Shown here: positions 3,322 through 46,836 of the stretch, piece after piece
Position numbering within the stretch: position 1 is the stretch's first letter
How the letters are laid out: every line of letters starts with the position of its first letter
From: Firmicutes bacterium HGW-Firmicutes-14
GTDB lineage: Bacteria; Bacillota; Thermincolia; Thermincolales; UBA2595
Direction of reading: 5' to 3'
DNA: 46,920 nucleotides
NCBI GenBank assembly: GCA_002840275.1
Contig: PHAB01000029.1
Location: forward strand, 1 to 46,920
Notes under the pieces: model-generated
Seen by the model: the letters and a program-made list of their open reading frames with translations, nothing else
Told to the model about the DNA's origin: nothing
Databases searched by the model: none
Made by a program: the position numbers and the translations under genes

Positions 3322-5895
3322 ATGGGAAAAATTCGTGTTTATGAATTAGCAAAGGAATTGGGATTAGAAAGTAAAGAATTAATTACGAAACTTACCGTTA
3401 TGGATATAGATGTGAAAAACCACATGAGTACCCTGGAGGATGAGGATATAGCAAAAGCCAAAAAGGCTTTTAAGACTATGAAGGAAGGTCCGGGGCAGAA
3501 AGAGAAGGCCGGCCCTTCCGGGAGTGTGCCCTCAGGGCTGGAAGGCAGGCCCCAGGATGCAAGGCCGCCGGGTGCAAGGCCGGAAGGCAGGCCCCAGGGA
3601 ACAAGGCCGCCGGGTGCAAGGCCGGAAGGCAGACCCCAGGGTACAAGGCCGCCGGGAGCAAGGCCGGAAGGCAGGCCCCAGGGAACAAGACCGCCGGGAG
3701 CAAGGCCGGAAGGCAGGCCCCAGGGTACAAGGCCGCCGGGGGCAAGGCCGGAAGGCAGGCCCCAGGGTACAAGGCCGCCGGGGGTAAGGCCGGAAGGCAG
3801 GCCCCAGGGTGCAAGGCCGCCGGGAGCAAGGCCGGAAGGCAGGCCCCAGGGAACAAGGCCGCCGGGAGCGAGGCCGGAAGGCAGGCCCCAGGGTGCAAGG
3901 CCGCCGGGTGCAAGGCCGGAAGGCAGACCCCAGGGACCCAAGCCTGACAGTAATAGACGTCCTGCCAGACCTGGGGATAGGAAACCCGGTGAAAAAGGGC
4001 AGGCTCCAATAGGTGAAAGGCGTCAGGAAAAGCCTGCAGACAGAAGGCGCCAGGAAGGAAGGAAACCTTCACCGGTTAAAGGCCAGTCTCCTGCCCAGGC
4101 AGCAGGAAATGCAGCTCCGGCCCCAAAGGAAACTCCCAGGAAACTTAAGCCGATAACAATCGGTGAAACGCTGACGGTACAAGATTTGGCTTTGAAACTT
4201 GCCAAGCCTGCAACCGAACTTATAAAGAAACTCATTTCCCTGGGAGTGATGGCGACAATAAACCAGGAAATAGATTCAGATACAGCAGTGATCCTGGCAG
4301 GTGAGTTTGGCAGGGAAATTGAGGTTAAAATAGAAAATGAGGAAGCTGACCTCATCGAGGAAAAAGAAGACTCTCCGGAGGATCTGCTTCCCCGCCCGAG
4401 TGTTGTGACGGTAATGGGACATGTCGACCATGGCAAAACATCACTTCTGGATGCCATCCGGGAAGCAAACGTTACTGCCAGTGAAGCAGGGGGGATTACC
4501 CAGCACATAGGCGCTTACCAGGTCATGCATAATGGTAAAAAGATAACCTTTCTGGATACTCCTGGGCACGAGGCCTTTACAGCCATGCGGGCCAGGGGAG
4601 CCCAGGCAACAGATATAGCGATAATAGTTGTAGCTGCTGATGACGGGGTTATGCCCCAGACCATTGAGGCTATCAACCATTCTAAGGCAGCCAAGGTTCC
4701 TATAATTATCGCTGTCAATAAGATGGATAAACCGGGTGCCAATCCTGACCGGGTAAAACAGGAGCTGACTGAGCACGGCCTGGTAACGGAAGAGTGGGGT
4801 GGTGATACTATATGTGTCTCCGTTTCCGCCAAGACAAAACAGGGGATTGAAGACCTGCTGGAGATGATCCTGCTGGTATCTGAAATGCAGGAATTCAAGG
4901 CCAATCCTAAACGAAGGGCCAGAGGTACGGTTATCGAAGCCGAACTTGACAAAGGCCGCGGTCCGGTGGCTACAGTACTGGTCCAAACCGGCACTATGGA
5001 GATCGGAGATTCGATGGTGGCCGGCCATGCCTTCGGAAAAGTCAGGGCTATGATAGATGACAAGGGGCGCCGGGTAAAAAAAGCCGGGCCGTCCACTCCG
5101 GTTGAGGTTCTTGGCCTCTCAGACGTTCCCCTCGCCGGGGATGTGTTCAATGTAGTCAGGGACGATAAGACTGCCAAGATCATTGCTGCCAGGAGAATCA
5201 ACAAAAAACGGGAAGAAGACCACAGGGCCATGGCAAAAGTATCATTGGATGACCTCTTTAAACAGATTAAGGAAGGTAAGGTAAAAGACCTGAACATAAT
5301 CATAAAAGCAGATGTTCAGGGTTCTATTGAGGCATTAAGAGAGGCGCTCCTAAAACTATCCAATGATGAAGTCCGGGTCAACCCCATCCACGGTGGGGTT
5401 GGGGCGATTACCGAAACGGATGTTATGCTGGCTTCAGCATCAAATGCCATCATTATGGGGTTCAATGTAAGGCCTGACACCAATGCCCGCAAGGCTGCAG
5501 AGCGGGAAAAGGTGGACCTCAGGCTCTACAGGGTAATATATAATGCTATTGAAGATATTAAGGCAGCCATGGTGGGTATGCTGGAGCCCGAGTTTAAGGA
5601 AGTAGTCATCGGAAGGCTGGAAGTCCGTCAGACCTTCAAGGTATCTAAGGTGGGCACTATTGCCGGATGTTATGTGACTGAAGGCAAAATCACCAAGAGT
5701 TCCGATGTCAGGGTTATCAGGGACGGTATTGTGGTCCACGAAGGGAAACTGGATTCCTTAAAAAGGTTCAAGGATGATGCCAGGGAAGTTGCTGAAGGCT
5801 ATGAATGCGGGCTTACTATAGTACGGTTCAATGACCTTTTTGAAGGTGACGTTATAGAGGCCTTTGTAATGGAACAGATACAACGGGAATTATAA
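3322..5895 (+). CDS. infB: Translation initiation factor IF-2 with proline/arginine-rich repeat linker
   Basis: IF-2 is the GTPase that places initiator fMet-tRNA on the 30S subunit and promotes subunit joining. In the 857-residue protein, residues 1-50 are the first IF2_N domain, about 65-275 a low-complexity linker, 283-337 a second IF2_N domain, and then the GTPase domain with G1 GHVDHGKT (366-373), G3 DTPGH (about 412) and G4 NKMD (466-469). Domains II, III and the tRNA-binding C-domain follow. The linker holds ten copies of a 14-residue unit built on [18 protein letters not shown] precedes the ATG. B. subtilis IF-2 is about 716 aa, so most of the extra length is the linker. Confidence 0.97.
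3541..3936 (+). repeat. 42-bp in-frame tandem repeat in infB
   Basis: Ten units with a 42-bp period start at 3541, 3583 and every 42 bases to 3919; the last is partial. Each encodes a variant of [14 protein letters not shown] and adds about two positive charges. Near-identity of the units at DNA level points to recent expansion. Confidence 0.97.
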
Positions 5896-5932
5896 ACTGC
5901 TGACTAAGCAAAATTGTTGTGGGGGTGTTTCC

Positions 5933-6298
5933 ATGACTTCTCACAGGGCAAATAGGGTTGCCGAAGAAATTAAAAAGGAAATTACCCAGATGTTAAGAGA
6001 TGAAATGAAGGATCCGCGGCTGGGATTTATTACAGTCACCGGTGTTGAGGTCACTCCTGACATCAGGTATGCCAAGGTGTTTGTCAGTATATTCGGAAAT
6101 GATGAAAACAAGGCTCAGTCATTACAGGCCCTGGAAAGCGCCAAGGGTTTCGTGCGAAGTGAATTAGGTAAGAGGATGAGGCTGAGGTATACCCCGGAAA
6201 TCAGCTTCAAGTTTGATTCATCAATTGAATATGGGGCCCGGATCATGAAATTGTTAAAAGAAGTAAAAGATACGGAGAATGAAAATGAACACTCTTGA
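5933..6298 (+). CDS. rbfA: Ribosome-binding factor A
   Basis: RbfA is a 30S maturation and cold-adaptation factor acting near the 16S rRNA 5' helix. The 121-residue protein has the single KH-like domain: an opening helix with RVAEEIKKEI, the DPRLGFITVTGVEVTPD core and RYAKVFVS strand, and a C-terminal SIEYGARI segment. Length is typical. It lies 37 bases after infB, and its last codons overlap the start of nrnA by 14 bases. Confidence 0.95.
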   Translation: MTSHRANRVAEEIKKEITQMLRDEMKDPRLGFITVTGVEVTPDIRYAKVFVSIFGNDENKAQSLQALESAKGFVRSELGKRMRLRYTPEISFKFDSSIEYGARIMKLLKEVKDTENENEHS

Positions 6299-7262
6299 GG
6301 AAACAGCCGAATTTCTGCGTAGAGGAAAGAGAGCCCTGATTACCGGGCATGCCATGCCTGACGGCGACAGCGTGGGCTCAGTACTGGCCATGAGTTTTCT
6401 CCTATCGGAGACAGGAGTGGAATGCCATGTTATAACTCCTGATCCATTACCGGCAGTTTATGATTTCCTGCCTGGCGCTGAAAGGTTTACCATGGAGACT
6501 GATAGATTACCACAGTGCGACCTGGCGGTTATTCTCGACTGTACCGATTTGACCCGGCTCGGGGATAAGCTGGAAGCTTATATCAGCCGGGTACCTCTGT
6601 TAGTTAATATCGACCATCATGTCAGCAATCAGGAATTTGGACATTGCAACTTTGTTGATGCACAAGCGGCTGCAACCGGTGAGATAATTTATGACCTGGC
6701 AGCCGTGATGGGTGTGCCGGTTTCCAGGGAAATAGCAGCCAATCTGTACACTGCTATTGCTATGGATACCGGTTCCTTCAGGTTCGATAACACCACTGAC
6801 AGGACCCATGAAGTGATAGCGCGATTAATCCGCTCAGGAATTGATGCTGCTGAAATCAATAAGAACTTATTCGAAACAAAAGAGTATGTCCAGTTAAAAC
6901 TGCTGGGATATGCCCTCAACCAACTGAAGGTTACTGAGGATGGCCGGGTGGCCTGGATAACTATTCCAGCCCCGGTAATGCAGGAACTGGGCGCCCTGGA
7001 TGAACATGCCGACGGGATAATAAATTACCCGCGGATGCTTGAGGGTGTCGAGATAGGACTGCTGTTCAGGGAAATCAGTCCTGGTAAATTCAAGGTAGGA
7101 TTCCGTTCCAAAAAACGTATTGATGTCAACAGGCTGGCGTCTGCCTTCGGTGGAGGCGGTCATCCGAGAGCAGCAGGATGTTCTGTCCAGGGGGATATTC
7201 AAGAGGTGGAGAATAAGGTGATCGACCTTTGTATCAAGGCCCTTAAGGCAGACGATATTTAA
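6285..7262 (+). CDS. nrnA: DHH-family nanoRNase/pAp phosphatase NrnA
   Basis: NrnA degrades short oligoribonucleotides and dephosphorylates 3'-phosphoadenosine 5'-phosphate. The DHH domain has GHAMPDGDSVGS near the start, LDCTD and the signature NIDHHVSN. The DHHA1 domain ends with GGGGHPRAAG. The protein is 325 aa if it starts at the ATG at 6285, which has GGAG (6274-6277) seven bases upstream. The ATG at 6279 would leave only one base between SD and start. The gene overlaps rbfA, as in other Firmicutes, where nrnA sits between rbfA and truB. Confidence 0.93.
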   Translation: MNTLEETAEFLRRGKRALITGHAMPDGDSVGSVLAMSFLLSETGVECHVITPDPLPAVYDFLPGAERFTMETDRLPQCDLAVILDCTDLTRLGDKLEAYISRVPLLVNIDHHVSNQEFGHCNFVDAQAAATGEIIYDLAAVMGVPVSREIAANLYTAIAMDTGSFRFDNTTDRTHEVIARLIRSGIDAAEINKNLFETKEYVQLKLLGYALNQLKVTEDGRVAWITIPAPVMQELGALDEHADGIINYPRMLEGVEIGLLFREISPGKFKVGFRSKKRIDVNRLASAFGGGGHPRAAGCSVQGDIQEVENKVIDLCIKALKADDI

Positions 7263-7303
7263 TATACAGGACCCGGTTAAAAAATCGTTTGGCTGGTGTT
7301 TTA

Positions 7304-8266
7304 ATGGACTCAAGCGACCTTAATGGAATAATAAATGTATTGAAACCTCCGGGGATGACTTCCCATGATGTGATAAGTTTTCTTCGCCGCACCCTGAAAA
7401 TCCGCAAAGCCGGACATACCGGTACCCTGGACCCGGGTGTGGCGGGAGTACTGGCCGTGTGTCTGGGAAAAGCGACCAAGGCAATTGAATATATGGAAGA
7501 CGGAATAAAACATTACAGGGCAGAAGTTTCATTCGGCAGGACAACCGATACCCAGGACAGTTTCGGACATACTGTTAAAGTATATGACGCATCTCTTATT
7601 ACTGAGGGTCAGGCGAAAAACGCTATCCTGTCCTGGCGGGGCAAACATCTTCAGATGCCTCCTATGGTTTCTGCCGTCAAACATAAAGGGAAGAAACTTT
7701 ATGAACTGGCGCGGGAAGGTAAAGAAGTTCCCCGCTGTCCCAGACCGGTAGAGATTTATGAAATTAACATTATCAGGTTCAGGGGGTTTGGCACTCCTAA
7801 CCCGTCGGTACTTTTTGATCTAACCTGTTCCAGGGGAACATATGTGAGGACTCTCTGTCATGATACCGGAGAGGTACTGGGGTGTGGTGGATATATGTCC
7901 TTCCTGGTAAGAACCGGTACAGGCAATTTGGATATCTCTGATTCCCTCATGCTGGAGGAAATCCTTGAAAAGACTGAAAACGGAAACATCAGGGATTGTA
8001 TAATTCCTGTCCACAGGGCAATCCCGTTTGCAGAGATATGGGTCAAAGATAAGTCAGTGAACTCTGTCTGTCATGGCAACCGTATTCCTGTTTCAGAAAC
8101 AGAAGGTAAACCGGACAGCCTTGAGAAAAACCAGAAAGTGAAGTTAATGAACAGGGGCAGCGGCTGTCTTGCTATAGCCAGAGTAGTACATAACAGCCCA
8201 TCTGACTGCCTTTCCATCGAGAATAACAGCACAATCATGTTCCAGCCTATTAAGGTATTATGCTGA
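7304..8266 (+). CDS. truB: tRNA pseudouridine(55) synthase TruB
   Basis: TruB makes pseudouridine 55 in the T-loop of tRNAs. The protein opens with INVLKPPGMTSHDV, has the catalytic Asp43 in GHTGTLDPGVAG, and has the later SRGTYVRTLCHD motif typical of TruB. The C-terminal part (about 240-320) is a diverged PUA-like region. ATG 7304 is preferred (320 aa); a TTG at 7289 is possible, and neither has a strong SD. The gene lies between nrnA and ribF, its usual place. Confidence 0.93.
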   Translation: MDSSDLNGIINVLKPPGMTSHDVISFLRRTLKIRKAGHTGTLDPGVAGVLAVCLGKATKAIEYMEDGIKHYRAEVSFGRTTDTQDSFGHTVKVYDASLITEGQAKNAILSWRGKHLQMPPMVSAVKHKGKKLYELAREGKEVPRCPRPVEIYEINIIRFRGFGTPNPSVLFDLTCSRGTYVRTLCHDTGEVLGCGGYMSFLVRTGTGNLDISDSLMLEEILEKTENGNIRDCIIPVHRAIPFAEIWVKDKSVNSVCHGNRIPVSETEGKPDSLEKNQKVKLMNRGSGCLAIARVVHNSPSDCLSIENNSTIMFQPIKVLC

Positions 8267-8278
8267 AGGGGAGATACC

Positions 8279-9208
8279 ATGGAGGTATATCATGGCATAA
8301 AGGTTATGGACAAGTCAAAGAATATCGTAATTGCCCTGGGTAACTTTGACGGTGTTCACCTGGGTCACCGTGAACTTATCCGGAGGACCAGGGAAATCGC
8401 CGAAACAGAAAAAGGTATCCCGGCAGTTTTTACTTTTGATCCCCACCCGATGAAGGTGCTGCAGCCTGACCGTTACCCTCCCATGCTTCTGTCCAGGGAG
8501 GAGAAGATAAATATATTATCCGGGCTGGGAATAAGGCTTCTGATAATTACACCTTTTTCGAAAGACATCTCCATGCTGTCACCCGAAGCATTTGTGAATG
8601 AGATTTTGGTGGACAGGCTGAATGTCCGGGCCGTAATAGTGGGTTACAACTATAATTTCGGATACCGGGGTGAAGGGAATGTTGAGACTCTTAGGCACCT
8701 TACAGAAAACCGCGGCATAAGAACAGTGGTTGTATCCCCTGTTAAGCTGCATGGAGTGGAAGTAAGCAGTACCCTCATCAGAAGGCTGCTGCTGGAGGGT
8801 AAGGTGTTTGAAGCGGCAGAATACCTTGGTTATCATCCCTTTGTCACTTCAAGGGTGGTAGAAGGTGACAGGAGGGGAAGGGAGCTTGGTTTTCCCACAG
8901 CTAATATGGACCTGCCCGCAGATATCCTTGTCCCGGCAAACGGGGTTTATGCTGTCAGGGTATATTTAAACGGTTCTATTCTTAAGGCTATCGCGAACAT
9001 CGGAATAAAGCCCACCTTTCAAGCTGACCGGCCTATAAACCTGGAGGTTCATTGCCTGGGCTTCAGTGGAAATCTGTATGGTGAGCTTATAAAGGTGGAA
9101 TTTATAAAAAGGATCCGGGGTGAACAGGCTTTTTCATCAGCCGGGGAACTTACCCGGCGAATCAGGAAGGATATGGAGGAAGCTGAAAAGATTTTTCCCG
9201 GGCTGTAA
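8279..9208 (+). CDS. ribF: Bifunctional riboflavin kinase/FAD synthetase
   Basis: RibF phosphorylates riboflavin to FMN and adenylylates FMN to FAD. The N-terminal FAD synthetase domain has the nucleotidyltransferase motif GNFDGVHLGH and FDPHPMKVL. The C-terminal kinase domain has GRELGFPTANM and NIGIKPTF. At 309 aa it is of normal length. GGGGAG stands six bases before the ATG at 8279. It lies 12 bases after truB and probably ends the first operon. Confidence 0.95.
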   Translation: MEVYHGIKVMDKSKNIVIALGNFDGVHLGHRELIRRTREIAETEKGIPAVFTFDPHPMKVLQPDRYPPMLLSREEKINILSGLGIRLLIITPFSKDISMLSPEAFVNEILVDRLNVRAVIVGYNYNFGYRGEGNVETLRHLTENRGIRTVVVSPVKLHGVEVSSTLIRRLLLEGKVFEAAEYLGYHPFVTSRVVEGDRRGRELGFPTANMDLPADILVPANGVYAVRVYLNGSILKAIANIGIKPTFQADRPINLEVHCLGFSGNLYGELIKVEFIKRIRGEQAFSSAGELTRRIRKDMEEAEKIFPGL

Positions 9209-9253
9209 CGGGAATAAAGTGCACCGGCTCTAAATATACTAGTTATAAATCAA

Positions 9254-9282
9254 TTTACATTACTTGCATTGTGTGTTAAAAT
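9254..9282 (+). promoter_or_regulatory. Sigma-A-type promoter before the small gene pair
   Basis: TTTACA (9254-9259) and TAAAAT (9277-9282) are 17 bases apart, followed about 40 bases later by an AAAGGAGG ribosome site. It would separate transcription of the small genes and rpsO from the ribF operon. Confidence 0.6.
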
Positions 9283-9322
9283 TATGACGGTAAGCACTCC
9301 TTAACTGAAAGGAGGCTTTTAA

Positions 9323-9550
9323 ATGGTCATTGCTGTTCCCGATTCGAGAGATGAGGAGTTCAGAAAGATTATCGATCAGGTTGCAGAAATTTGCCTGAGC
9401 AAAGAATTTGATGACCTGAGAAGAGAACTTGAGACCATTTATGAAAACAACAATATTAAAAATGCATTATTGACCGCATTTCAGGACGCCTTATACTCTA
9501 TTCTTGCCGAAAAGGAAGAGGCAAGAAAAAGCAGGATGCTCATTTACTAA
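9323..9550 (+). CDS. Small hypothetical helical protein (75 aa)
   Basis: I do not recognise this protein. It is predicted to be mostly helical and acidic, with no membrane segment and no visible DNA-binding motif. AAAGGAGG lies 8 bases before the ATG and a good promoter lies upstream, so it is probably a real gene. It precedes a second small basic gene by 21 bases in the same direction. The acidic-then-basic pairing recalls toxin-antitoxin modules, but nothing else supports that. Confidence 0.7.
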   Translation: MVIAVPDSRDEEFRKIIDQVAEICLSKEFDDLRRELETIYENNNIKNALLTAFQDALYSILAEKEEARKSRMLIY

Positions 9551-9571
9551 ACAGTAGGGGAACGGTCCATC

Positions 9572-9793
9572 ATGCGGGTAATAATTACGGAACACGCCCG
9601 AAAGCGCCTGAAGGATTTGCGCCAGGAGAAGATTAACACGGCTGATATAATAAATGCGGCCAGAGAGATTCCCGGTAAAATCCCCACAGCTACCAGGTTC
9701 AGGGGATTTTTCGCCAAATCCGGGCGGGTGTTTGACATAGTTGCTAAGGACATCCCCGGTGGACGGCTTGTTATAACGGTTATAGGGAAATGA
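9572..9793 (+). CDS. Small basic protein, DUF4258-like
   Basis: This 73-residue protein begins with a strand and then a His-Ala-Arg-Lys-Arg-Leu helix. It continues with an 'IINAAREIPGK' segment and ends in strands rich in Val and Gly (GRVFDIVAKDIPGGRLVITV). This order resembles DUF4258/RelE-like small proteins, an assignment by resemblance only. GGGGAACGG precedes the ATG. It follows the 75-aa gene by 21 bases, so the two are probably co-expressed. Confidence 0.65.
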   Translation: MRVIITEHARKRLKDLRQEKINTADIINAAREIPGKIPTATRFRGFFAKSGRVFDIVAKDIPGGRLVITVIGK

Positions 9794-29950: not shown

Positions 29951-30736
29951 ATGACGGTTTTTCAATCTGTAATCCTTGGCATTATTCAGGGCCTGACAGA
30001 GTTTTTGCCCATAAGCAGCTCCGGCCACCTGGTGCTTTTTCAGAGTTTGTTCGGCCTTAAGGAAGGTGTACTGACTTTCGATGTCCTTGTTCACCTTGGC
30101 ACCCTTGCTGCTGTACTGGCTGTGTTTAAAAATGATATATTATCAATCCTGAGGAAACCGTGGCAGAGATTAACCATGCTCCTGGTCGTAGCAACCATTC
30201 CCACAGGCATCATAGGCCTCACCTTCAAGGATTTTTTTAAAAACCTCTTTGAAACAGGCAGTTCCCTTGGCATTGAGTTTATTGTAACCGGCCTGGTGAT
30301 ATGGTTTGCTGACGGATTTAAGGAGCGGGACAAAGACATGGACAGGATTTCATATTTTGATGCGGCTTTTGTCGGGCTAATGCAGGGGATAGCCATTCTG
30401 CCTGCGATATCCCGGTCAGGCCTGACCATAGCAGGCTCTTTATTCAGGGGTATCAACAGGGAAACAGCCGCCAGGTTTTCATTTCTGGTCTCTATCCCGG
30501 CCATTGCGGGGGCCACTGTCCTTGACCTCAAGGATATAGTTCTGGCAGGCCAGGGAATCCCTGGGGGAATGGGCCTGCCATTTCTTATTGGACCGGTGAT
30601 GGCAGCGATATCGGGCTATTGGGCTGTGAAATTTATGATCAGGGTCCTGCAGAGAGGAAGCATGAAGGGCTTTGCCTATTACGTCTGGGCCTTGGGAGTA
30701 TTGGTAATCATCCTGCAGCTGACAGGCCGGCTTTAG
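29951..30736 (+). CDS. uppP: Undecaprenyl-diphosphate phosphatase
   Basis: UppP recycles the undecaprenyl pyrophosphate carrier used for peptidoglycan and other lipid-linked sugars, and affects bacitracin resistance. The 261-residue polytopic membrane protein has both BacA motifs, GLTEFLPISSSGH (14-26) and PAISRSG with the GxxR region. Eight or so hydrophobic segments are visible. GGAGG lies ten bases before the ATG. It interrupts the tepA-ylzJ-spoIIIE order of B. subtilis. Its lipid-carrier role may link it to the glycosylation locus downstream, an inference. Confidence 0.95.
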   Translation: MTVFQSVILGIIQGLTEFLPISSSGHLVLFQSLFGLKEGVLTFDVLVHLGTLAAVLAVFKNDILSILRKPWQRLTMLLVVATIPTGIIGLTFKDFFKNLFETGSSLGIEFIVTGLVIWFADGFKERDKDMDRISYFDAAFVGLMQGIAILPAISRSGLTIAGSLFRGINRETAARFSFLVSIPAIAGATVLDLKDIVLAGQGIPGGMGLPFLIGPVMAAISGYWAVKFMIRVLQRGSMKGFAYYVWALGVLVIILQLTGRL

Positions 30737-33417: not shown

Positions 33418-34824
33418 ATGGCCGTAAGACGCAGCGCTATAACCTGCCTTTTAATAATAATGCTGACCCTTTTTAGCGGTTGTGCCCGGGATGGCCAGGA
33501 CAATCAGGAGTATTACGGAATTTATGGTTCCGCCGGGCCCTGGAAGGTTGGCATCGTAAAGGGGGCGGCAGATAAGACCCCGTCCGGTCTGAATGAGGCA
33601 GTGGCAGCCGGAATCAGCAAAATAATTAAAGACTATGATGCAGAATACACTGTGCTTGACCAGGGTGACCTGGTAAATAACGAGGAATGCCTGAGATACC
33701 TGGCAGAGAACGGTTATAACCTGGTGATCGCCGTTGGGGCGGGCATGGAAGAATCCCTGGCGAAGATTGCCCCAGATTACCCGGACGTGAGTTTTATTAT
33801 TTTTGACGGGGAAGTTGAACAGGATAATGTGTCAAGTGTCAAGATAACAGAAGAAGAAGGGGCCTTTTTGGCCGGGGTTGCTGCTGCTGCTTTCACAAAA
33901 TCAAATATGGTGGGTTATGTTGGCGGGGCAATGACAGACCATACAATGGAACAAGGGTTTGCCAGGGGCGTACAGTATGTCAATATAACGGAAGGTAAAA
34001 AGGTTAAGGTTTATGTATCTTATGCCGGAGTAACGGAAAAAGCCGCCGGTGATTCTGAACGGGGAAAACAGCTGGCCGCCAATATGTACTGGTCAGGTGT
34101 GGATGTGGTATACAGCGGGCCGGGCAGCCTGGGAAGCGGTGCAGCCAAAGCCGCTGCCGAAAACCGGAGTATAGCTTTTGTCAATGATGCCTCACTGGTA
34201 AATACTATGCCCTGGAACGTATATGGGTCAGTGATAAAAAAACCTGAAGAGGTGGTTTATGCCCTGGCTAAAAAGGCCCTGGGCGGAGAATTTGCTGCAG
34301 GGAGAGCGGGGTTCGGATTGACCCACGGTGCGGTGGATTTTATTCTCAGCCAGGCTGTGCCGGAAGATACTGCCGGTAAATTGAACCGGATTAAAGACCA
34401 GATAAAAAAAGGGGAGATTAAACCTTATGCAATAGAGATTCCGGTTGGGCTGGTCACAGACATGAAAGAACTGCCTGTTGACAGAAACAGACCTCCCGCA
34501 GGAGCACAGCCGGGTACCGGGAACAGCGGCAGGACCGGAGGGGGAAGCAACTCTTCCGGCGGCAGCACCGGTGGGAGCAGCAACGGCGGCACTGCCGGAA
34601 GCGGTGAAAACACTGGTGGAACGACAACCGGGCCGTCAACCGGAACGAATACCGGCGAAGCGGCCGATAATCCGGGTAATGATGATAGTGCCGGCGGTTC
34701 AGAGACGACAGATGGTTCAGGAACCGACGGGACGACAGGCGGTTCAAATGGAAACGGGACTGCAGGTGATTCAGGTTCGGGTGACACGACTGACCCGCTT
34801 CCACAGGATATCGGGAGTACCTAA
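33418..34824 (+). CDS. BMP/Med-type substrate-binding lipoprotein with Gly/Ser/Thr/Asn-rich tail
   Basis: A 468-residue lipoprotein: signal sequence with lipobox LFSGC (Cys22), then a BMP-family periplasmic-binding fold (about 40-350) with NLVIAVGAGMEESLAKIA, GYVGGAMTDH and the AFVNDASLVNT region. The fold binds nucleosides or related ligands in known members (PnrA), and B. subtilis Med belongs to the same family. Residues about 355-468 form a long low-complexity tail of Gly, Ser, Thr, Asn and acidic residues, unusual for a binding protein. No permease or ATPase gene lies beside it. It follows spoIIIE by 33 bases with AGGGAGGGG as SD. The real ligand is unknown. Confidence 0.88.
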   Translation: MAVRRSAITCLLIIMLTLFSGCARDGQDNQEYYGIYGSAGPWKVGIVKGAADKTPSGLNEAVAAGISKIIKDYDAEYTVLDQGDLVNNEECLRYLAENGYNLVIAVGAGMEESLAKIAPDYPDVSFIIFDGEVEQDNVSSVKITEEEGAFLAGVAAAAFTKSNMVGYVGGAMTDHTMEQGFARGVQYVNITEGKKVKVYVSYAGVTEKAAGDSERGKQLAANMYWSGVDVVYSGPGSLGSGAAKAAAENRSIAFVNDASLVNTMPWNVYGSVIKKPEEVVYALAKKALGGEFAAGRAGFGLTHGAVDFILSQAVPEDTAGKLNRIKDQIKKGEIKPYAIEIPVGLVTDMKELPVDRNRPPAGAQPGTGNSGRTGGGSNSSGGSTGGSSNGGTAGSGENTGGTTTGPSTGTNTGEAADNPGNDDSAGGSETTDGSGTDGTTGGSNGNGTAGDSGSGDTTDPLPQDIGST

Positions 34825-34828
34825 GGAA

Positions 34829-35027
34829 CTGGCTTCATGAGGCTTGTTGACAAATAAGCGGGGTAATAAAAGGGGATGGGCATGTTCCAAAAGGGCGAGT
34901 CTGTCATCCGTCCGGCCGATGACCCGCGAAGCGGGAATCGTTGCCGGCGGAGACGTTGCCGCCCGTTGGAACGTGCCCATCACCTTTTTAGACTGGTAAT
35001 TTTGTCAACTGGCTTCAATGAAGCCAG
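34829..35027 (+). repeat. Structured intergenic element, copy 3, with flanking inverted repeats
   Basis: The core outer stem pairs 34868-34890 with 34966-34988 (22 pairs, one G-A mismatch, one G-U). Inside, a CCG.CCGGC/GCCGG.CGG pair and an apical CGAT/ATCG plus CCCGC/GCGGG hairpin (about 34918-34940) mirror copies 1 and 2. Outside, GTTGACAAA (34846-34854) pairs with TTTGTCAAC (35001-35009), and CTGGCTTCAT (34829-34838) with ATGAAGCCAG (35018-35027). The CGAGTCTG(T/A)C(A/G)TCCGT segment is shared with copy 1. The stretch 35028-35168 shows no clear feature. Confidence 0.75.
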
Positions 35028-35168
35028 GTCCTTAGTTATATTGTGTGAATTGTCAAAAATTGACGAAATTGCTTAATAACAGTCGAAGCTTGCAGGGGAT
35101 TATATCATTTATGACGAAATATTACCAGTGGAAAAATATCAAGGGAATATCGTCCCAGGGGGAAGCTT

Positions 35169-36608
35169 ATGTTTAAAAAGCTCAAACTTCAGCATACTGC
35201 CGGCTTTTTTCTTCTCCTGCTTTTTTCACTGGCTGCCGGACAACCGATAAGTGACACAGACATTTGGTGGCACCTGAGGGTGGGCCGGTACATCTGGCAA
35301 AACAGCATGATTCCGGGGACAGACCCCTTTTCTTTTTCCAACATGGGGCATTTATGGATTACTCATGAGTGGCTGTCAGAAGTTATATATTACCTTTCCT
35401 ACCAATACGGAAACCTATATGGACTGGTTACCGTCAATTTGCTCCTGCTCTGCCTGGTTTTTACCATCCTGTACCGGATTACAGTATTGCGGACGGGAAG
35501 GCCCTTTATGAGTATCGTATTGACGGTCGTGGCTGCCGTACTTTCCTCACCGTTCTGGGTTTACCGGCCCCATATGTTCGGGTATGCAGGTTTCATGGCA
35601 TACATCTATATTCTTGAACATTATAAAAAGGGCAGAAGCAAACTTCTGTGGTGCCTGCCGCTGATTATGGTGTTCTGGGTAAATGCCCACGGTTCATACA
35701 TAATCGGATTGGTACTTATAGGAATATACCTGGTTTCCGGCCTGGTAAAAAAGGGTCCGGGGGGAACAGAAGCAGAGCCTTGGACCAGGGAGCAGGCCCG
35801 CAACCTGGCCTTTTCCCTGGCTGCATCCTTTGCCATAACCTTCCTGAACCCCAATACTTATAAGATGGTTATTTACCCCTTTTTCACCATTGGGAATTCC
35901 AATATTGTGGATAAAATCAATGAATGGTCCTCACCGGATTTTCATGAGCCGGTTTTCCAGGTTTTCCTGGTGGTTGTCCTTGCCGGATTCTTACTTACCG
36001 CAGTCTATGAGGGAAGGCACAGGATATCTGACCTGCTTCTCCTGGCCGCCTTCACAGGCCTGGCCCTGTTTGCGGTCAGGAATATAGCTCTTTACCTGTT
36101 TGCCTGTACCCCGGTCCTGGGTTATTACCTGTCGGGGCTTATCCGCCCCCGGGCTGACCACAGGCAGTATTATGCGGTGAATTGGCTCCTGGCCCTGGTT
36201 ATTGCTTTTGCAATATTCATTTCCTGGCCTGCCAAAAACGATCTTTCTGCCCACCAGGACACTTCCGTTTTCCCGGCCGGAGCCGTAAAGTACCTGGCGG
36301 AAAACAGGATTGAAGGGGACATATTTAATGATTATAACTGGGGGGGTTACCTCCTTTGGTACCGCTACCCGGATAACCGGGTATTCATTGACGGGAGGAC
36401 TGATATATATGCCGACAGGGTCTTCCCTGATTACCTGAAGGTGATGAACCTTTCTCCCGGCAATATGGAGATCCTTGAAGACTACGGTCCTGATCTGATA
36501 CTCATCAAAACCGGCGCTGCCCTTAACGGGATACTTATCAAACGCCCCGAGTGGAAGGTCATTTACAGTGATAGTATATCAGTTATCTATAAACGGGCTG
36601 AAGGTTAA
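35169..36608 (+). CDS. Polytopic membrane protein, GT-C-like, paralogue A
   Basis: A 479-residue protein with about 10-12 hydrophobic segments in the first 380 residues and a soluble C-terminal part. Residues 29-39 read DTDIWWHLRVG, followed by SFSNMGHLWITHEWLSE. The C-terminal domain has GDIFNDYNWGGYLLW and DGRTDIYADRVFPDY. An Asp-rich first loop and many membrane spans resemble GT-C glycosyltransferases (PMT/ArnT-like), but I cannot assign a named family. It shares all these motifs with the next gene, so it arose by tandem duplication. It heads the glycosylation-type operon. Confidence 0.75.
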   Translation: MFKKLKLQHTAGFFLLLLFSLAAGQPISDTDIWWHLRVGRYIWQNSMIPGTDPFSFSNMGHLWITHEWLSEVIYYLSYQYGNLYGLVTVNLLLLCLVFTILYRITVLRTGRPFMSIVLTVVAAVLSSPFWVYRPHMFGYAGFMAYIYILEHYKKGRSKLLWCLPLIMVFWVNAHGSYIIGLVLIGIYLVSGLVKKGPGGTEAEPWTREQARNLAFSLAASFAITFLNPNTYKMVIYPFFTIGNSNIVDKINEWSSPDFHEPVFQVFLVVVLAGFLLTAVYEGRHRISDLLLLAAFTGLALFAVRNIALYLFACTPVLGYYLSGLIRPRADHRQYYAVNWLLALVIAFAIFISWPAKNDLSAHQDTSVFPAGAVKYLAENRIEGDIFNDYNWGGYLLWYRYPDNRVFIDGRTDIYADRVFPDYLKVMNLSPGNMEILEDYGPDLILIKTGAALNGILIKRPEWKVIYSDSISVIYKRAEG

Positions 36609-36672
36609 AACCGGGCTGACGTATGAATCCTAGCTGACGGGAGAACCCAGGGGCGGAACAGGAGAGGGACTG

Positions 36673-38118
36673 ATGCGCAAGATCCTGGCCGGAATAAAAA
36701 TCCAACATGTGGCTGCTGCCGGAATAATTTTGCTGCTGGTAATAGGGAACGCGGCCCCGGTTGATGACCCCGATGTCTGGTGGCACCTGAGAGTGGGGCA
36801 GGATATCTGGGCACAGGGGGAGATTCCTGTAAAGGACGCCTATTCCTTTTCCAATGCAGGACACACGTGGGTGGCCCATGAGTGGCTGGCAGAGGTTTTT
36901 TATGGGCAGGTTTACGCAACATCCGGCTACCAGGGGCTGCTGGTATTCAATATAACTGTCATCTCCCTAACTTTATTTCTGCTGTATAAAGTGATAATGG
37001 ATTATCTGGGGGAGAGGAAGGCTGCCGCCCTGGCCATGCTGATTGTTGCGGCTGTGCTCAATTCCGTTTTCTGGATGTTCAGGCCTCATATACCGGCATA
37101 CCTGCTTTTCGCCAGCTTTATATTCCTGCTGTACAGGGAGAAAAAATTCAGGAAGGGTATTTGCCTGCTGCCTTTTCTGATGATACTGTGGGTAAACATC
37201 CACGGGTCATATATCCTCGGAATTTGGCTGGCAGGAATCTACCTGCTGTCAGGGACAGTCAGGCTGGAAATAGGCAGGATGGTTCCCAGGCTCATGGACA
37301 GGGACCGGAAGAAAACTACAGTTGCTGTATTAGCGGCAATCATTCTGGCCGTATTTGTAAACCCGAACACATATCATATGTTCCTGTATCCTTTTCAGAC
37401 CGTCAACTCAGAAATGATCACATCCAATGTGCTTGAATGGCTGTCACCGGATTTTCACCAAAAACGCATGGCCCTTTTTCTTGCTTATATAATGTTCACC
37501 TACGGTATACTGGCTATCTCCCGTGAACGGATATATATTGATGAAATGGTCAATATGCTAGCTTTTACGGCCCTGGCGATGTTTGGGGCCAGAAACCTGG
37601 CGCTGTACGTGTTTATTTCCCTCCCGGTAATGGCCAGGCACCTTAAGGGGCTTCTGGGTCAACCTGTTAAAAGGGTGAACATGCCTTTTGTGAACTGGGC
37701 TGCAGTACTATTGACAGTTGTTTTGACAGTTGTTTTCTGGCCTTCTGCCCGTAGCCTGGAAGATAACACAGGCAAAGGGGAGTTTCCCCAGGCGGCACTG
37801 CGATATATGGAAGAACACTCCCTGAAAGGGAACATCTTTAATGATTACGACTGGGGTGGATATCTCATATGGAAGGGTTATCCTGACTTCAGGGTTTTTG
37901 TGGACGGCAGGGCTGACATATATGCTGACAGGGTTATACCTGATTATATCACCATCATGTCGGCCGGCAAAGAGTCGTATAGGGTATTTGAGAGTTATAA
38001 TACCGATTATGCCCTCCTGCGCAGGGATGAACCCTTTGCCGCCCTGCTGTCAGCCAGTCCCGGGTGGTCAGGGATATACAGGGATGAAACGGCAGTCATA
38101 TTTGCCAGGGTACGGTAA
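36673..38118 (+). CDS. Polytopic membrane protein, GT-C-like, paralogue B
   Basis: A 481-residue paralogue of the preceding gene with DDPDVWWHLRVG at 31-42, YSFSNAGHTWVAHEWLAE following, and GNIFNDYDWGGYLIW and DGRADIYADRVIPDY towards the C-terminus. About a dozen membrane segments occupy residues 12-370. GGAGAGGG precedes the ATG by a few bases, 64 bases after paralogue A. The conserved Asp/Trp/His cluster on the first extracytoplasmic loop is a likely active site. Glycosyl transfer from a polyprenyl-phosphate sugar is inferred from context. Confidence 0.75.
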   Translation: MRKILAGIKIQHVAAAGIILLLVIGNAAPVDDPDVWWHLRVGQDIWAQGEIPVKDAYSFSNAGHTWVAHEWLAEVFYGQVYATSGYQGLLVFNITVISLTLFLLYKVIMDYLGERKAAALAMLIVAAVLNSVFWMFRPHIPAYLLFASFIFLLYREKKFRKGICLLPFLMILWVNIHGSYILGIWLAGIYLLSGTVRLEIGRMVPRLMDRDRKKTTVAVLAAIILAVFVNPNTYHMFLYPFQTVNSEMITSNVLEWLSPDFHQKRMALFLAYIMFTYGILAISRERIYIDEMVNMLAFTALAMFGARNLALYVFISLPVMARHLKGLLGQPVKRVNMPFVNWAAVLLTVVLTVVFWPSARSLEDNTGKGEFPQAALRYMEEHSLKGNIFNDYDWGGYLIWKGYPDFRVFVDGRADIYADRVIPDYITIMSAGKESYRVFESYNTDYALLRRDEPFAALLSASPGWSGIYRDETAVIFARVR

Positions 38119-38139
38119 TCTTTTGAAGGGAGAAGACAA

Positions 38140-39144
38140 ATGGACCCTTCCCTTGATTTAAAACAGAAGTTTTTCTCACTGAAGACCCTGTTTTCGTTTC
38201 TGCTGGCTTTTGCCATTATATACCTGCTGGTGACCAGGATGGATACGGCAGAGGTGGCCGGAGTAATCAAAAACACCAGTTTACCTGTTTATGCAGCCGG
38301 TTTCCTGGTGTATTATGCGGCTTTTCCCCTGAGGGGATTCAGGTTTCGGATAATGTTGGAGAACAATGGCTGTGAGGCCCGTCCAGGGGACCTGACCAGG
38401 ATTATTTTCATATCCTGGTTTGCCAACTGTATTGCACCGGCCAAACTGGGTGACCTGTTTAGGGCTTATCTGGTCAAAACCAGGTATTGCCATTCTTTTG
38501 CCGGTACCGTTGGCACCATTTTTGCCGAGAGAGTTTTTGACCTGTTCATCCTTTATCTTTTGATAGGAGGCAGTGGGTTACTGGCATTCAGGGGAAAAAT
38601 TCCCGGTAACATGATGGCTGTCCTTCAGACCGGTTTCATTATTCTGGCGGCAGTCCTGGCAGTTCTGGTATTAATGAGATACCGGGGGGAAGGCCTGGTG
38701 AACAGGCTGCCTGAAAAGGCAAGGGGAATCTATAAAAAATTTCGCAGTGGAACGATGAGTTCTTTCCGCAACAACGGGAAAATTGCTGCCCTGACGACAA
38801 TGGTATGGCTTCTTGAGGGCATCAGTTTCTATCTGGTTACCGGGTCCATAGGGATGAATATTTCATTTATTGCCGTTATCTTTATCGGACTTCTTTCCGC
38901 CCTGCTGACCGCTCTTCCCATCACCCCGGCAGGGCTGGGTTTTGTGGAAACAGCCAAAGTCGGTGTCCTGCTGTTTTTTCAGGTGGACAGCAGTATTGCT
39001 GTTTCAGCCGCACTTCTGGACCGGGTTATTAACTACTGGAGCCTTCTGCTGTTTGGGTTTGTGGTCTATATGGCCACAGAACACGGCAAAATGCAAAAGG
39101 AGGAAGGCATTTATGAAAGCAATGATAGTAATACCTACTTATAA
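38140..39144 (+). CDS. UPF0104/AglD-like flippase-domain membrane protein
   Basis: A 334-residue integral membrane protein of the lysylphosphatidylglycerol synthase transmembrane/UPF0104 family. FISWFANCIAPAKLGDLFRAYL and GTIFAERVFDLF in the first half and ALPITPAGLGFVE in the second are typical. Members occur beside polyprenyl glycosyltransferases and are proposed to flip lipid-linked substrates; proof is limited. SD GAAGGGAG precedes the ATG, and its end overlaps the next gene by 32 bases, indicating one transcript. Confidence 0.85.
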   Translation: MDPSLDLKQKFFSLKTLFSFLLAFAIIYLLVTRMDTAEVAGVIKNTSLPVYAAGFLVYYAAFPLRGFRFRIMLENNGCEARPGDLTRIIFISWFANCIAPAKLGDLFRAYLVKTRYCHSFAGTVGTIFAERVFDLFILYLLIGGSGLLAFRGKIPGNMMAVLQTGFIILAAVLAVLVLMRYRGEGLVNRLPEKARGIYKKFRSGTMSSFRNNGKIAALTTMVWLLEGISFYLVTGSIGMNISFIAVIFIGLLSALLTALPITPAGLGFVETAKVGVLLFFQVDSSIAVSAALLDRVINYWSLLLFGFVVYMATEHGKMQKEEGIYESNDSNTYL

Positions 39145-39817
39145 TGAGAAAGAGAACATAACCCGTCTTATACCGGAAGTCCTGGTCCAGGACCCAGGAT
39201 CGGAAGTCCTGGTAGTGGACGACAATTCCCCTGACGGCACAGGGAGCCTGGTGGAAGAAATGTCAGGACAGAATGAGCGTATCCACCTGATAAGAAGGCC
39301 GGGGAAAATGGGTCTTGGGACTGCCTATATCACCGGGTTCAGGTATGCCCTGGAAAGGCCAGGGATAGACTGTATTTTTGAAATGGATGCGGATTTTTCC
39401 CACCAACCGGGGTATATTCCTGATTTTTTAAAGGCCGCTGAATCAGCGGATGTGGTCCTTGGGTCAAGGTATGTACCGGGTGGGGGAGTCCGGAACTGGG
39501 GCATCACCCGGAAGGTGTTAAGCCGCGGGGGCAGCATCTTTTCCAGGTTCATGCTGGGGCTGCCCGCCAGGGATTGTACTGGGGGCTTCAGGTGTTACAG
39601 GAGAGAGGTATTAGGCGCCCTCGACCTGGACCGGATTAGTTCAGAAGGTTTTGGGTTCCAGGTGGAGATGCTCCACGAATGCAATAAAAGGGGATTCAGG
39701 ATTAAAGAAATCCCGATAATATTTCCCGACCGGGAACAGGGCACGTCAAAAATATCAAAGAAAATTGTTTTTGAGGCTTTTTTCCTGGTCTGCAGGCTCA
39801 GGTTTTCCAAACAATAA
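39113..39817 (+). CDS. GT2 glycosyltransferase, polyprenol-phosphate mannose synthase-like
   Basis: A 234-residue soluble DPM1-type GT2 enzyme expected to transfer a hexose (probably mannose) from a nucleotide sugar to polyprenyl phosphate on the cytoplasmic face. It opens with MIVIPTYNEKENI, has VVDDNSPDGT, the metal-binding MDADFSHQP (DXD-like) and DCTGGFRCYRREVL. It lacks the membrane tail of some relatives. ATG 39113 has AAAGGAGG about nine bases upstream. The start lies inside the end of the flippase-like gene. Confidence 0.9.
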   Translation: MKAMIVIPTYNEKENITRLIPEVLVQDPGSEVLVVDDNSPDGTGSLVEEMSGQNERIHLIRRPGKMGLGTAYITGFRYALERPGIDCIFEMDADFSHQPGYIPDFLKAAESADVVLGSRYVPGGGVRNWGITRKVLSRGGSIFSRFMLGLPARDCTGGFRCYRREVLGALDLDRISSEGFGFQVEMLHECNKRGFRIKEIPIIFPDREQGTSKISKKIVFEAFFLVCRLRFSKQ

Positions 39818-39856
39818 CGACCGGATCAGGGCTGTGCTTTGAAGTGGGGGGAGACC

Positions 39857-41095
39857 ATGAACAGAAGAGTACTGGCAGCAATTTGGTTATTAACACGTAT
39901 AATGATAATAGTCCGTATCGGGTTGCTCCAGGAAATCGAACAGGATATTCAGATCTATTTTAACTATTCGTCAAATATTTTTGCAGGACTTGTCCCATAC
40001 AGGGATTTTGTCGCAGAATACCCGCCCGGTGCCCTGGCTTTCTTCCTCCTGCCCAGGATATTTTCCGGTGAGGATATCCTCCTGTACCGCCTGTTTTTTG
40101 TCCTGGAGATAATGCTGGTGGAGTTATGGGGTTGGTTCCTTACAGACAGGTTTTACCGGGACAAGGGTTGTTCAGAGAAACACAGGAACCTGGCCGGACT
40201 TTTTTATATCACGGTCCCCACCCTGATCTGGTTTGTTTCTTACCAGAGGTTTGATTTTATCCCCGCAGTTCTTGTCCTCTGGTCAGTCATCCTCTATGAC
40301 AGGGGTAAACGGGTACCGGCATGGGCTCTGATGGGTCTGGGATTTGCGGTCAAGCTTTACCCGGTAATCCTGGCCCCGGTGTTCCTGGCCTATGCATTCA
40401 GGCATAAGACCCTGACGGCTGACTTCCTGAAGGGCGTCCCGGCTGCCGTGGCGGCAGTATCTGCTATATGGATTCCTTTTATGGCTGCAGCAGGAAACAG
40501 GTTCTGGGTCTTCCTGAGCTATCACGGACAGAGGGGAATTCAGCTGGAAAGCATTTATTCCTCTGTTCTGATCACTGCCCACTGGTTTGGGTACCCGGCA
40601 GAAACTAATTTTTCCTTCGGGTCATGGAACCTGGTTTCGCCGGTGTCTCCCTTCCTGGCCAGGATTTCCCTCGGAATTATGGCAGCACTGATGATTTTGG
40701 TATTTATTCGTTACCTTCCCCTAATGAAATCTCCGGGCAGGGGGGTAAGGGGTGAAGAAGTGTTTGAACTTCCATGGCTGGCAATCCTGATGGTCCTGGC
40801 CTTTGTAATTGGGGGCAAGGTCCTTTCACCCCAGTATCTGCTATGGATTCTTCCCCTGCTGGTAGTGGTTTTCAGAGAAGGGTCTGATCATACCAGGAGC
40901 TTTTTTATGGTATTTGGCCTCATTGCCTTTCTTTCGTTACTGATTTACCCCCTCAGTTACAGGAGTATGACAGAACTGGCCCTGTTTCCGTCGCTGCTTC
41001 TGCTCATAAGAAACGGCCTGCTGGTATTGATGTTCTACTTCCTGTTGAGTATCGGGAAGACCAGCAAAGCTGCCAAAAAAACAAAGGATACGTAA
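39857..41095 (+). CDS. GT87/DUF2029-like membrane mannosyltransferase
   Basis: A 412-residue polytopic membrane protein with about nine to ten segments. VPYRDFVAEYPPGALAFFLLP near residue 49 and GFAVKLYPVILAPVFLAY are characteristic of the GT87 (PimE-like) polyprenyl-phosphate-mannose-dependent transferases. It likely acts on the outer face with the sugar donor made by the upstream GT2. ATG 39857 has GGGGGGAG close upstream. Its last 61 bases overlap the 3' end of the opposite-strand permease gene. Confidence 0.8.
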   Translation: MNRRVLAAIWLLTRIMIIVRIGLLQEIEQDIQIYFNYSSNIFAGLVPYRDFVAEYPPGALAFFLLPRIFSGEDILLYRLFFVLEIMLVELWGWFLTDRFYRDKGCSEKHRNLAGLFYITVPTLIWFVSYQRFDFIPAVLVLWSVILYDRGKRVPAWALMGLGFAVKLYPVILAPVFLAYAFRHKTLTADFLKGVPAAVAAVSAIWIPFMAAAGNRFWVFLSYHGQRGIQLESIYSSVLITAHWFGYPAETNFSFGSWNLVSPVSPFLARISLGIMAALMILVFIRYLPLMKSPGRGVRGEEVFELPWLAILMVLAFVIGGKVLSPQYLLWILPLLVVVFREGSDHTRSFFMVFGLIAFLSLLIYPLSYRSMTELALFPSLLLLIRNGLLVLMFYFLLSIGKTSKAAKKTKDT

Positions 41096-46239: not shown

Positions 46240-46836
46240 ATGAAAGTCACTGAAAGTGGCGAAATGAAACACAGACAACTTCATCTTGAAGACTATCTGC
46301 AAAGGGTATCTGCGGAACAGAGAGAGTATGCAGAAGTGTGCGAGCCACCCAAGATGGCTGAAACCGACATCACCAACACAACCGAGCAGGCGGAAGGACT
46401 GCTGGAGCAAATTCTAACCCGAGACAATCTGAACCGGGCATACAAGCAGGTGAAGAGAAACAAAGGTGCAGGTGGAATTGACGGAATGCAGGTGGATGAA
46501 CTTCTACCCTACCTGAAAGAAAACCAGAAGGAGCTAATACAGTCCCTCCGGGACGGAAAATACCGTCCGAAGCCCGTTCGAAGGGTAGAAATACCCAAAG
46601 AAAACGGGAAAACCAGAAAACTAGGGATACCAACTGTTGTCGACAGGCTCATCCAACAGGCGATAAGCCAAATCCTGACGCCAATCTTTGAAAAGCAGTT
46701 CTCGGACAATAGCTTCGGGTTCCGTCCAAAACGAAGTACTCACGACGCTCTGAGGAAATGTCAGACCAATATCACAGAAGGCTACAAGTATGTAGTCGAT
46801 ATGGATTTGGAGAAGTACTTCGGTGCGCCAGGCTAA
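46240..46836 (+). CDS. ltrA: Group II intron reverse transcriptase/maturase, interrupted by a second intron
   Basis: The N-terminal RT part is intact. NRAYKQVKRNKGAGGIDG, LRDGKYRPKPVRRVEIPK, RKLGIPTVVDRLIQQAI, FSDNSFGFRPKRSTHDAL and YVVDMDLEKYF are RT0-RT3 motifs of LtrA-like proteins and close to class IIC enzymes. The catalytic YADD, the maturase X domain and any endonuclease are absent because, just after Phe of EKYF (46821), the sequence changes into another intron 5' end. Only four foreign codons and a TAA remain in frame. Splicing of the inner intron would restore the frame. SD GAGGAGG precedes the ATG by nine bases. Confidence 0.88.
   Translation: MKVTESGEMKHRQLHLEDYLQRVSAEQREYAEVCEPPKMAETDITNTTEQAEGLLEQILTRDNLNRAYKQVKRNKGAGGIDGMQVDELLPYLKENQKELIQSLRDGKYRPKPVRRVEIPKENGKTRKLGIPTVVDRLIQQAISQILTPIFEKQFSDNSFGFRPKRSTHDALRKCQTNITEGYKYVVDMDLEKYFGAPG

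Follow-up and report, generated by a model that had tools for sequence, protein, structure and literature searches.

Multi-component (three-component) transmembrane glycosylation has been described in Gram-positive bacteria for the GtlA/GtcA/GtlB, CsbB/GtcA/YfhO and GacI/GacK/GacL systems (PMC8035078), and in the known HexSDF and GpgSDF glycolipid operons a glycosyltransferase gene stands together with that of an MprF-like flippase (PMC10128005, PMC12713373). We analysed a 46,920-nt stretch of DNA from Firmicutes bacterium HGW-Firmicutes-14 (contig PHAB01000029.1; the window is this whole stretch) and found at 35169–41095 a tight five-gene operon encoding, in order, two paralogous membrane proteins with a D-x-D-x-W-W-H-L motif (WWHL-A and WWHL-B), a TIGR00374 flippase-like protein, a family 2 glycosyltransferase (GT2) and a GT87-like transferase (Table 1). 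In our best reading, to which we give a probability of about two in three, this cassette encodes a multi-component, outward-facing transmembrane glycosylation route that depends on a lipid carrier.

The two WWHL proteins shared 39% identity over 475 residues, and the motif noticed in the sequence-only reading of this DNA was present as D29-x-D31-x-W-W-H-L in WWHL-A. At least 552 relatives were found in named genomes; the 80 nearest, mostly from Chloroflexota and Acidobacteriota, were 30–35% identical across nearly the full length, and WWHL genes were present in 18 of the 398 sampled genomes of the window's phylum. None of the 79 aligned members matched a family in the Pfam scan, NCBIfam gave only scattered weak matches, and the STT3 profile PF02516 was matched by 0 of the 79 at E ≤ 0.01 and by nothing in genome G000. 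Likewise, a sequence search for solved relatives returned none, and a search of the viral structure library gave no match at E ≤ 0.001.

The AlphaFold2 model of WWHL-A, built from a 76-sequence alignment, had a predicted local distance difference test (pLDDT) score of 93.4 and a predicted template modelling (pTM) score of 0.91, and its top matches in Foldseek and VIA were GT-C proteins, which made up the 50 VIA matches listed, GT-C-fold PIG-U among them. The closest was STT3 of oligosaccharyltransferase (OST; Z 23.5, root-mean-square deviation 3.9, 432 residues aligned, model residues 1–479), the yeast and human STT3 proteins giving Z 23.5–20.5 over 420–435 of the 479 residues, followed by AglB (Z 19.9), DPY19 (18.3), PglB (18.1), Pmt4 (17.8) and ArnT (16.8). 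The model also showed the external C-terminal domain of the STT3-type fold. Thus, the GT-C fold that had been proposed from the sequence, and whose absence had been named beforehand as one outcome that would count against the proposal, was found in the predicted structure of WWHL-A. According to a review, profile searches with a variety of GT-C proteins match STT3 and a small number of other structures (PMC8035078). A control fold of the GT87-like protein (pLDDT 64) ranked ALG3, PIG-M and PimE first (Z 13–14) and STT3 at just Z 7, indicating that the STT3 likeness of WWHL-A was more than a default result. The likeness was one of fold rather than membership, because PF02516 was unmatched and the exact WWDYG motif was absent from the family, which carries N-x-Y-x-W-G-G-Y in the C-terminal domain; on these grounds WWHL as an OST was rejected. 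The phylum sample contained weak STT3 matches only and no genuine STT3. Taken together, the model and the profile searches suggest that the WWHL proteins are a so far unnamed family of GT-C proteins of STT3-like architecture.

Sixteen alignment columns were invariant across the 79 sequences, and the invariant residues included D31, H35, D52, R133, W170, N172, H174, E252, W253, R304 and G392-G393; position 29 was D or E in all 79. The topology of WWHL-A was drawn with 11 membrane passes taken from the model helices, with the sides assigned by the positive-inside rule (18.9% Lys+Arg in loops on the assumed cytoplasmic side vs 6.8% on the outer side). This assignment placed D29-x-D31 in the first external loop, where GT-C enzymes carry a (modified) DxD motif, and placed 22 of the 24 conserved polar or aromatic residues in external loops or in the external C-terminal domain. 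In this predicted topology, the residue layout is that of an enzyme working on the outer face of the membrane.

The partner genes would supply the remaining steps of such a route. The GT2 was soluble, with no hydrophobic segment, and its best solved relative was the dolichyl-phosphate mannose synthase (DPMS) of P. furiosus, pointing by homology to a GT-A-fold synthase of lipid-phosphate-linked sugar. The flippase-like protein exceeded the TIGR00374 cut-off; no GtrA- or Wzx-type flippase was found in the locus, where the TIGR00374/PF03706 protein stood in its place. The third GT-C protein scored 39.9 bits against the GT87 profile PF09594 (curated cut-off 25), so that external GT-C proteins were recognised in the locus by model (WWHL-A), by identity to the modelled paralogue (WWHL-B) and by profile (GT87-like). 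By homology, the GT2 would use a nucleotide sugar to load polyprenyl phosphate with a hexose at the cytoplasmic face, the TIGR00374-type protein, or another flippase, would move the lipid-linked sugar or glycolipid to the outer leaflet, and WWHL-A, WWHL-B and the GT87-like protein, given the predicted fold and orientation of WWHL-A, would carry out the transfer outside. Since one donor would serve three GT-C enzymes, these most likely work one after another to build a short glycan or glycolipid of the surface, or else modify different acceptors. Donor synthesis, flipping and transfer, which had been proposed as a complete route, each retained a candidate; the carrier-recycling UppP fell outside the cassette. 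Mannose as the sugar is plausible as far as family resemblance to DPMS and to PimE, ALG3 and PIG-M goes.

The distribution of the cassette supported its coherence in part. The flippase-like orthologue was found in 4 of the 398 sampled genomes of the phylum, all in the window's order and each time immediately ahead of the GT2 gene, and in all four (4/4) this pair was accompanied by a GT87-like gene. The latter came next in the window's genome and in the relatives G005 and G006; in G009 a sulfatase-family gene lay between GT2 and GT87-like genes. This sulfatase-superfamily (LtaS-like) gene (L007:14419–16212) may point to a decoration of phosphoglycerol or similar type. In a tree of WWHL proteins, the single copy of G002 and the first copy of G009 fell together with WWHL-A, and the second G009 copy with WWHL-B (support 95). 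Since G009 comes from a different family of this order, the WWHL duplication is older than the divergence of the two families, and the pair, handed down vertically with the locus, is an ancient part of it in both. A distant third WWHL-like protein was also encoded in G009 (D-D-T-W-Y-H-L; L009:6902–8368), next to cytochrome c biogenesis-like genes and the gene of a large multihaem protein.

Several observations weighed against the proposed route. The G006 locus consisted of lipoprotein, flippase, GT2 and GT87-like genes without WWHL, in a genome 63% complete whose contig is continuous there. The lone WWHL gene of G002 lay elsewhere than at this locus, and the G005 contig ended at the flippase gene and so cannot show WWHL absence. 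The expected co-occurrence of the families was therefore partial. A flippase gene was near WWHL in just 2 of 84 loci, and TIGR00374 as a general WWHL partner was rejected, the association not being seen outside this order. In addition, TIGR00374-type proteins are better linked to the flipping of phospholipids and glycolipids (MprF, HexF, GpgF) than of polyprenyl-phosphate sugars, the flipping by HexF and GpgF being a proposed, unverified activity (PMC10128005, PMC12713373).

The main alternatives to the favoured route were a glycolipid product and a protein or pilin acceptor. In the first, the cassette would make a membrane glycolipid, with the GT2 glycosylating a lipid, the TIGR00374 protein flipping it, and the GT87-like and WWHL proteins extending the head group outside. 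We regard this as possible, though unlikely: the GT2 was closest to DPMS, a maker of polyprenyl-phosphate sugars, the cassette contained no deacetylase gene, and GT-C enzymes require a polyprenyl-linked sugar, so that a donor synthase would be needed in any case. The pairing of a glycosyltransferase with an MprF-like flippase in the SDF operons, the resemblance of the GT87-like model to PimE, a glycolipid mannosyltransferase, and the sulfatase-superfamily gene in the G009 cluster all speak for a glycolipid.

In the second alternative, the WWHL proteins would be protein glycosyltransferases, OST-like or DPY19/PMT-like, acting on surface or pilus proteins. The best structural matches were indeed protein glycosyltransferases (STT3, AglB, DPY19, PglB, Pmt), and the WWHL neighbourhoods elsewhere pointed in the same direction. 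Among the 80 named loci (L013–L092), which had been picked for their similarity to the query and are therefore not independent samples, 31 had Tad pilus genes (CpaB, CpaC, CpaF or TadB) near WWHL, 21 of them within 3 kb. Separately, 37 of these loci carried this kind of GT2 gene, in 36 cases no more than 3 kb away, an independent link of WWHL to GT2 that speaks for the favoured route. In Bacillota, WWHL followed directly after TadB or TadE-like genes at L159, L160 and L161 and lay near Tad genes at L157, L163, L165 and L168; a CpaB match exceeding the cut-off occurred within 10 kb of WWHL in 5 of the 15 Bacillota WWHL genomes, where, with few CpaB-like genes per 2–7 Mb genome, we estimate a chance expectation of well under one genome. 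The WWHL-Tad link was thus seen in three phyla (Chloroflexota, Acidobacteriota and Bacillota) with differing gene orders, and the literature searched contained no account of the WWHL motif or of Tad-linked GT-C enzymes. These neighbourhoods suggest that a family of surface or pilus glycosyltransferases has gone unrecognised. Tad/Flp-adjacent WWHL genes were often accompanied by GT2 and S-adenosylmethionine-dependent methyltransferase genes, and at L162 (~5188–9660) a divergent WWHL gene came directly after PilM/PilN/PilO-like genes of a type IV pilus system. Against a protein acceptor, both Tad loci of the window's genome lay on other contigs without WWHL, neither PF02516 nor the exact WWDYG was matched, and a common fold says nothing of the acceptor; we consider this reading credible and nonetheless improbable as it stands. 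Its broadest form appears doubtful. There, the WWHL proteins would make up a widespread bacterial class of OST-like enzymes, so far overlooked, that glycosylate proteins with polyprenyl-phosphate monosaccharides supplied by a GT2. Their targets in these three phyla would chiefly be proteins of Tad/type IV pili or others at the surface, and in this order the family would have become joined to the flippase-GT2-GT87 cassette.

Less probable still, the WWHL proteins could be catalytically dead membrane scaffolds for another GT-C enzyme. PIG-U has a GT-C fold without transferase activity and serves in the glycosylphosphatidylinositol (GPI) transamidase. Its chains matched WWHL-A at Z 13, and the exact OST motifs were absent from the family; the external acidic, His and Arg residues strictly conserved in 79 members fit catalysis better, and WWHL was the sole recognised GT-C protein beside a GT2 at many loci.

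The least likely reading is that of a dedicated mannosylation system whose own substrate is the neighbouring lipoprotein, proposed earlier because of its Ser/Thr tail: that tail is real (120 residues, 30% Ser+Thr, 28% Gly), the genes are adjacent, and the first WWHL gene of G009 lies immediately next to the lipoprotein gene, but the 99% complete, cassette-free G008, without WWHL or the flippase orthologue, keeps a Gly-rich tail (118 residues, 22% Ser+Thr, 31% Gly), the tail of the cassette-bearing G009 reaches just 20% Ser+Thr, a palindromic repeat parts the lipoprotein gene from the operon in the window, and no such PnrA-like lipoprotein was found near WWHL loci in other phyla. Tailed lipoproteins were therefore not confined to cassette genomes and the tail did not follow the cassette, so that the tail as a dedicated acceptor was rejected and the lipoprotein next to the operon is unlikely to be its dedicated substrate. 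In seven relatives, with the cassette or without it, the lipoprotein gene came after ftsK, and uppP lay upstream. In the window, uppP did lie upstream, as had been noted, at a distance of 4.4 kb from the operon, ftsK/spoIIIE and the lipoprotein gene occupying the interval, and UppP as a member of the system was rejected by the same synteny in relatives without the cassette.

All six open reading frames (ORFs) from the lipoprotein gene to the GT87-like gene were confirmed on the + strand, at the positions and in the order that had been read from the sequence. Two starts were corrected: the GT2 most likely begins at ATG 39113, with a strong ribosome-binding site and a 32-nt overlap with the flippase gene, and the GT87-like gene at ATG 39857, also with a ribosome-binding site, in an ORF that itself opens at TTG 39839. 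With these starts assumed, the intergenic distances in the operon were 64, 21, −32 and 39 nt. Promoter and terminator searches gave no signal exceeding shuffled sequences. The lipoprotein gene ended 344 nt upstream of the operon, and the strongly palindromic repeat in between was ~200 nt long, a nested palindrome with a predicted RNA hairpin (z −12.9); some of its matching places in the genome were two arms of a single copy, and the matches elsewhere were 68–93% identical. It looks like an element of the miniature inverted-repeat transposable element (MITE) or repetitive extragenic palindromic (REP) kind. Close to the contig end, at 46240–46836, was an ORF for a group II intron type reverse transcriptase.

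Table 1 Features of the cassette and its surroundings in the window
Feature	Coordinates	Strand	Description and basis
WWHL-A	35169..36608	+	GT-C-fold membrane protein, 11 predicted transmembrane helices and external C-terminal domain; AlphaFold2 model, STT3 match, conservation
WWHL-B	36673..38118	+	WWHL-A paralogue, orthologue of second G009 copy; 39% identity, tree support 95
Flippase-like protein, TIGR00374 / LPG_synthase_TM	38140..39144	+	PF03706 6e-47; TIGR00374 3e-33
Soluble GT2, polyprenyl-phosphate-sugar-synthase-like (DPMS type)	39113..39817	+	PF00535 7e-33; 5mlz, E 5.6e-35
GT87-like GT-C transferase	39857..41095	+	PF09594 5e-10; modest-confidence model nearest ALG3/PIG-M/PimE, Z 13–14
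PnrA/BMP-like lipoprotein, Ser/Thr/Gly-rich C-terminal tail	33418..34824	+	PF02608 (Bmp/PnrA-like) 1.6e-48; resident neighbour, judged outside cassette
UppP/BacA	29951..30736	+	PF02673 4e-78; resident neighbour, not cassette-linked
Dispersed palindromic repeat, gap between lipoprotein gene and operon	34830..35040	not assigned	25 genome matches; hairpin −134.6 kcal/mol

With more than 550 relatives, the WWHL family has no Pfam or NCBIfam entry, yet is confidently predicted to consist of GT-C enzymes with OST-like architecture, and a name for it would bring an annotation to hundreds of proteins now listed as 'hypothetical membrane proteins'. Its position by Tad operons in three phyla raises the possibility that pili or other surface proteins are glycosylated by an enzyme class so far not sought.

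Compared with described systems, the cassette shares with the multi-component systems a GT-A/GT2 enzyme predicted to charge a lipid carrier, a flippase candidate, GT-C proteins acting outside and a DxD motif in an external loop, and differs from them in that the GT2 is soluble and DPMS-like, the flippase is of the TIGR00374/LPG_synthase_TM rather than the GtrA/Wzx type, and there are three GT-C proteins, two from an unnamed STT3-like family. The WWHL-A model resembles STT3, AglB and PglB (GT66) over nearly its full length, including the external C-terminal domain, and the WWHL proteins likewise place acidic residues outside, have an invariant Arg close to the outer surface of the membrane and carry an aromatic-Gly motif in their C-terminal domain; unlike those enzymes, they lack PF02516, are only 10–14% identical to them, have 479 residues rather than 640–870, carry Y-x-W-G-G-Y in place of WWDYG and are linked to monosaccharide-type GT2 genes. 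The GT87-like protein, by its Pfam family and modest-confidence model, is nearest to the polyprenyl-phosphate-mannose mannosyltransferases PimE, ALG3 and PIG-M. Finally, the cassette resembles the HexSDF and GpgSDF operons in having an MprF-like flippase beside a glycosyltransferase, and is distinguished from them by a different glycosyltransferase, the lack of a deacetylase and the addition of GT-C enzymes (PMC10128005, PMC12713373).

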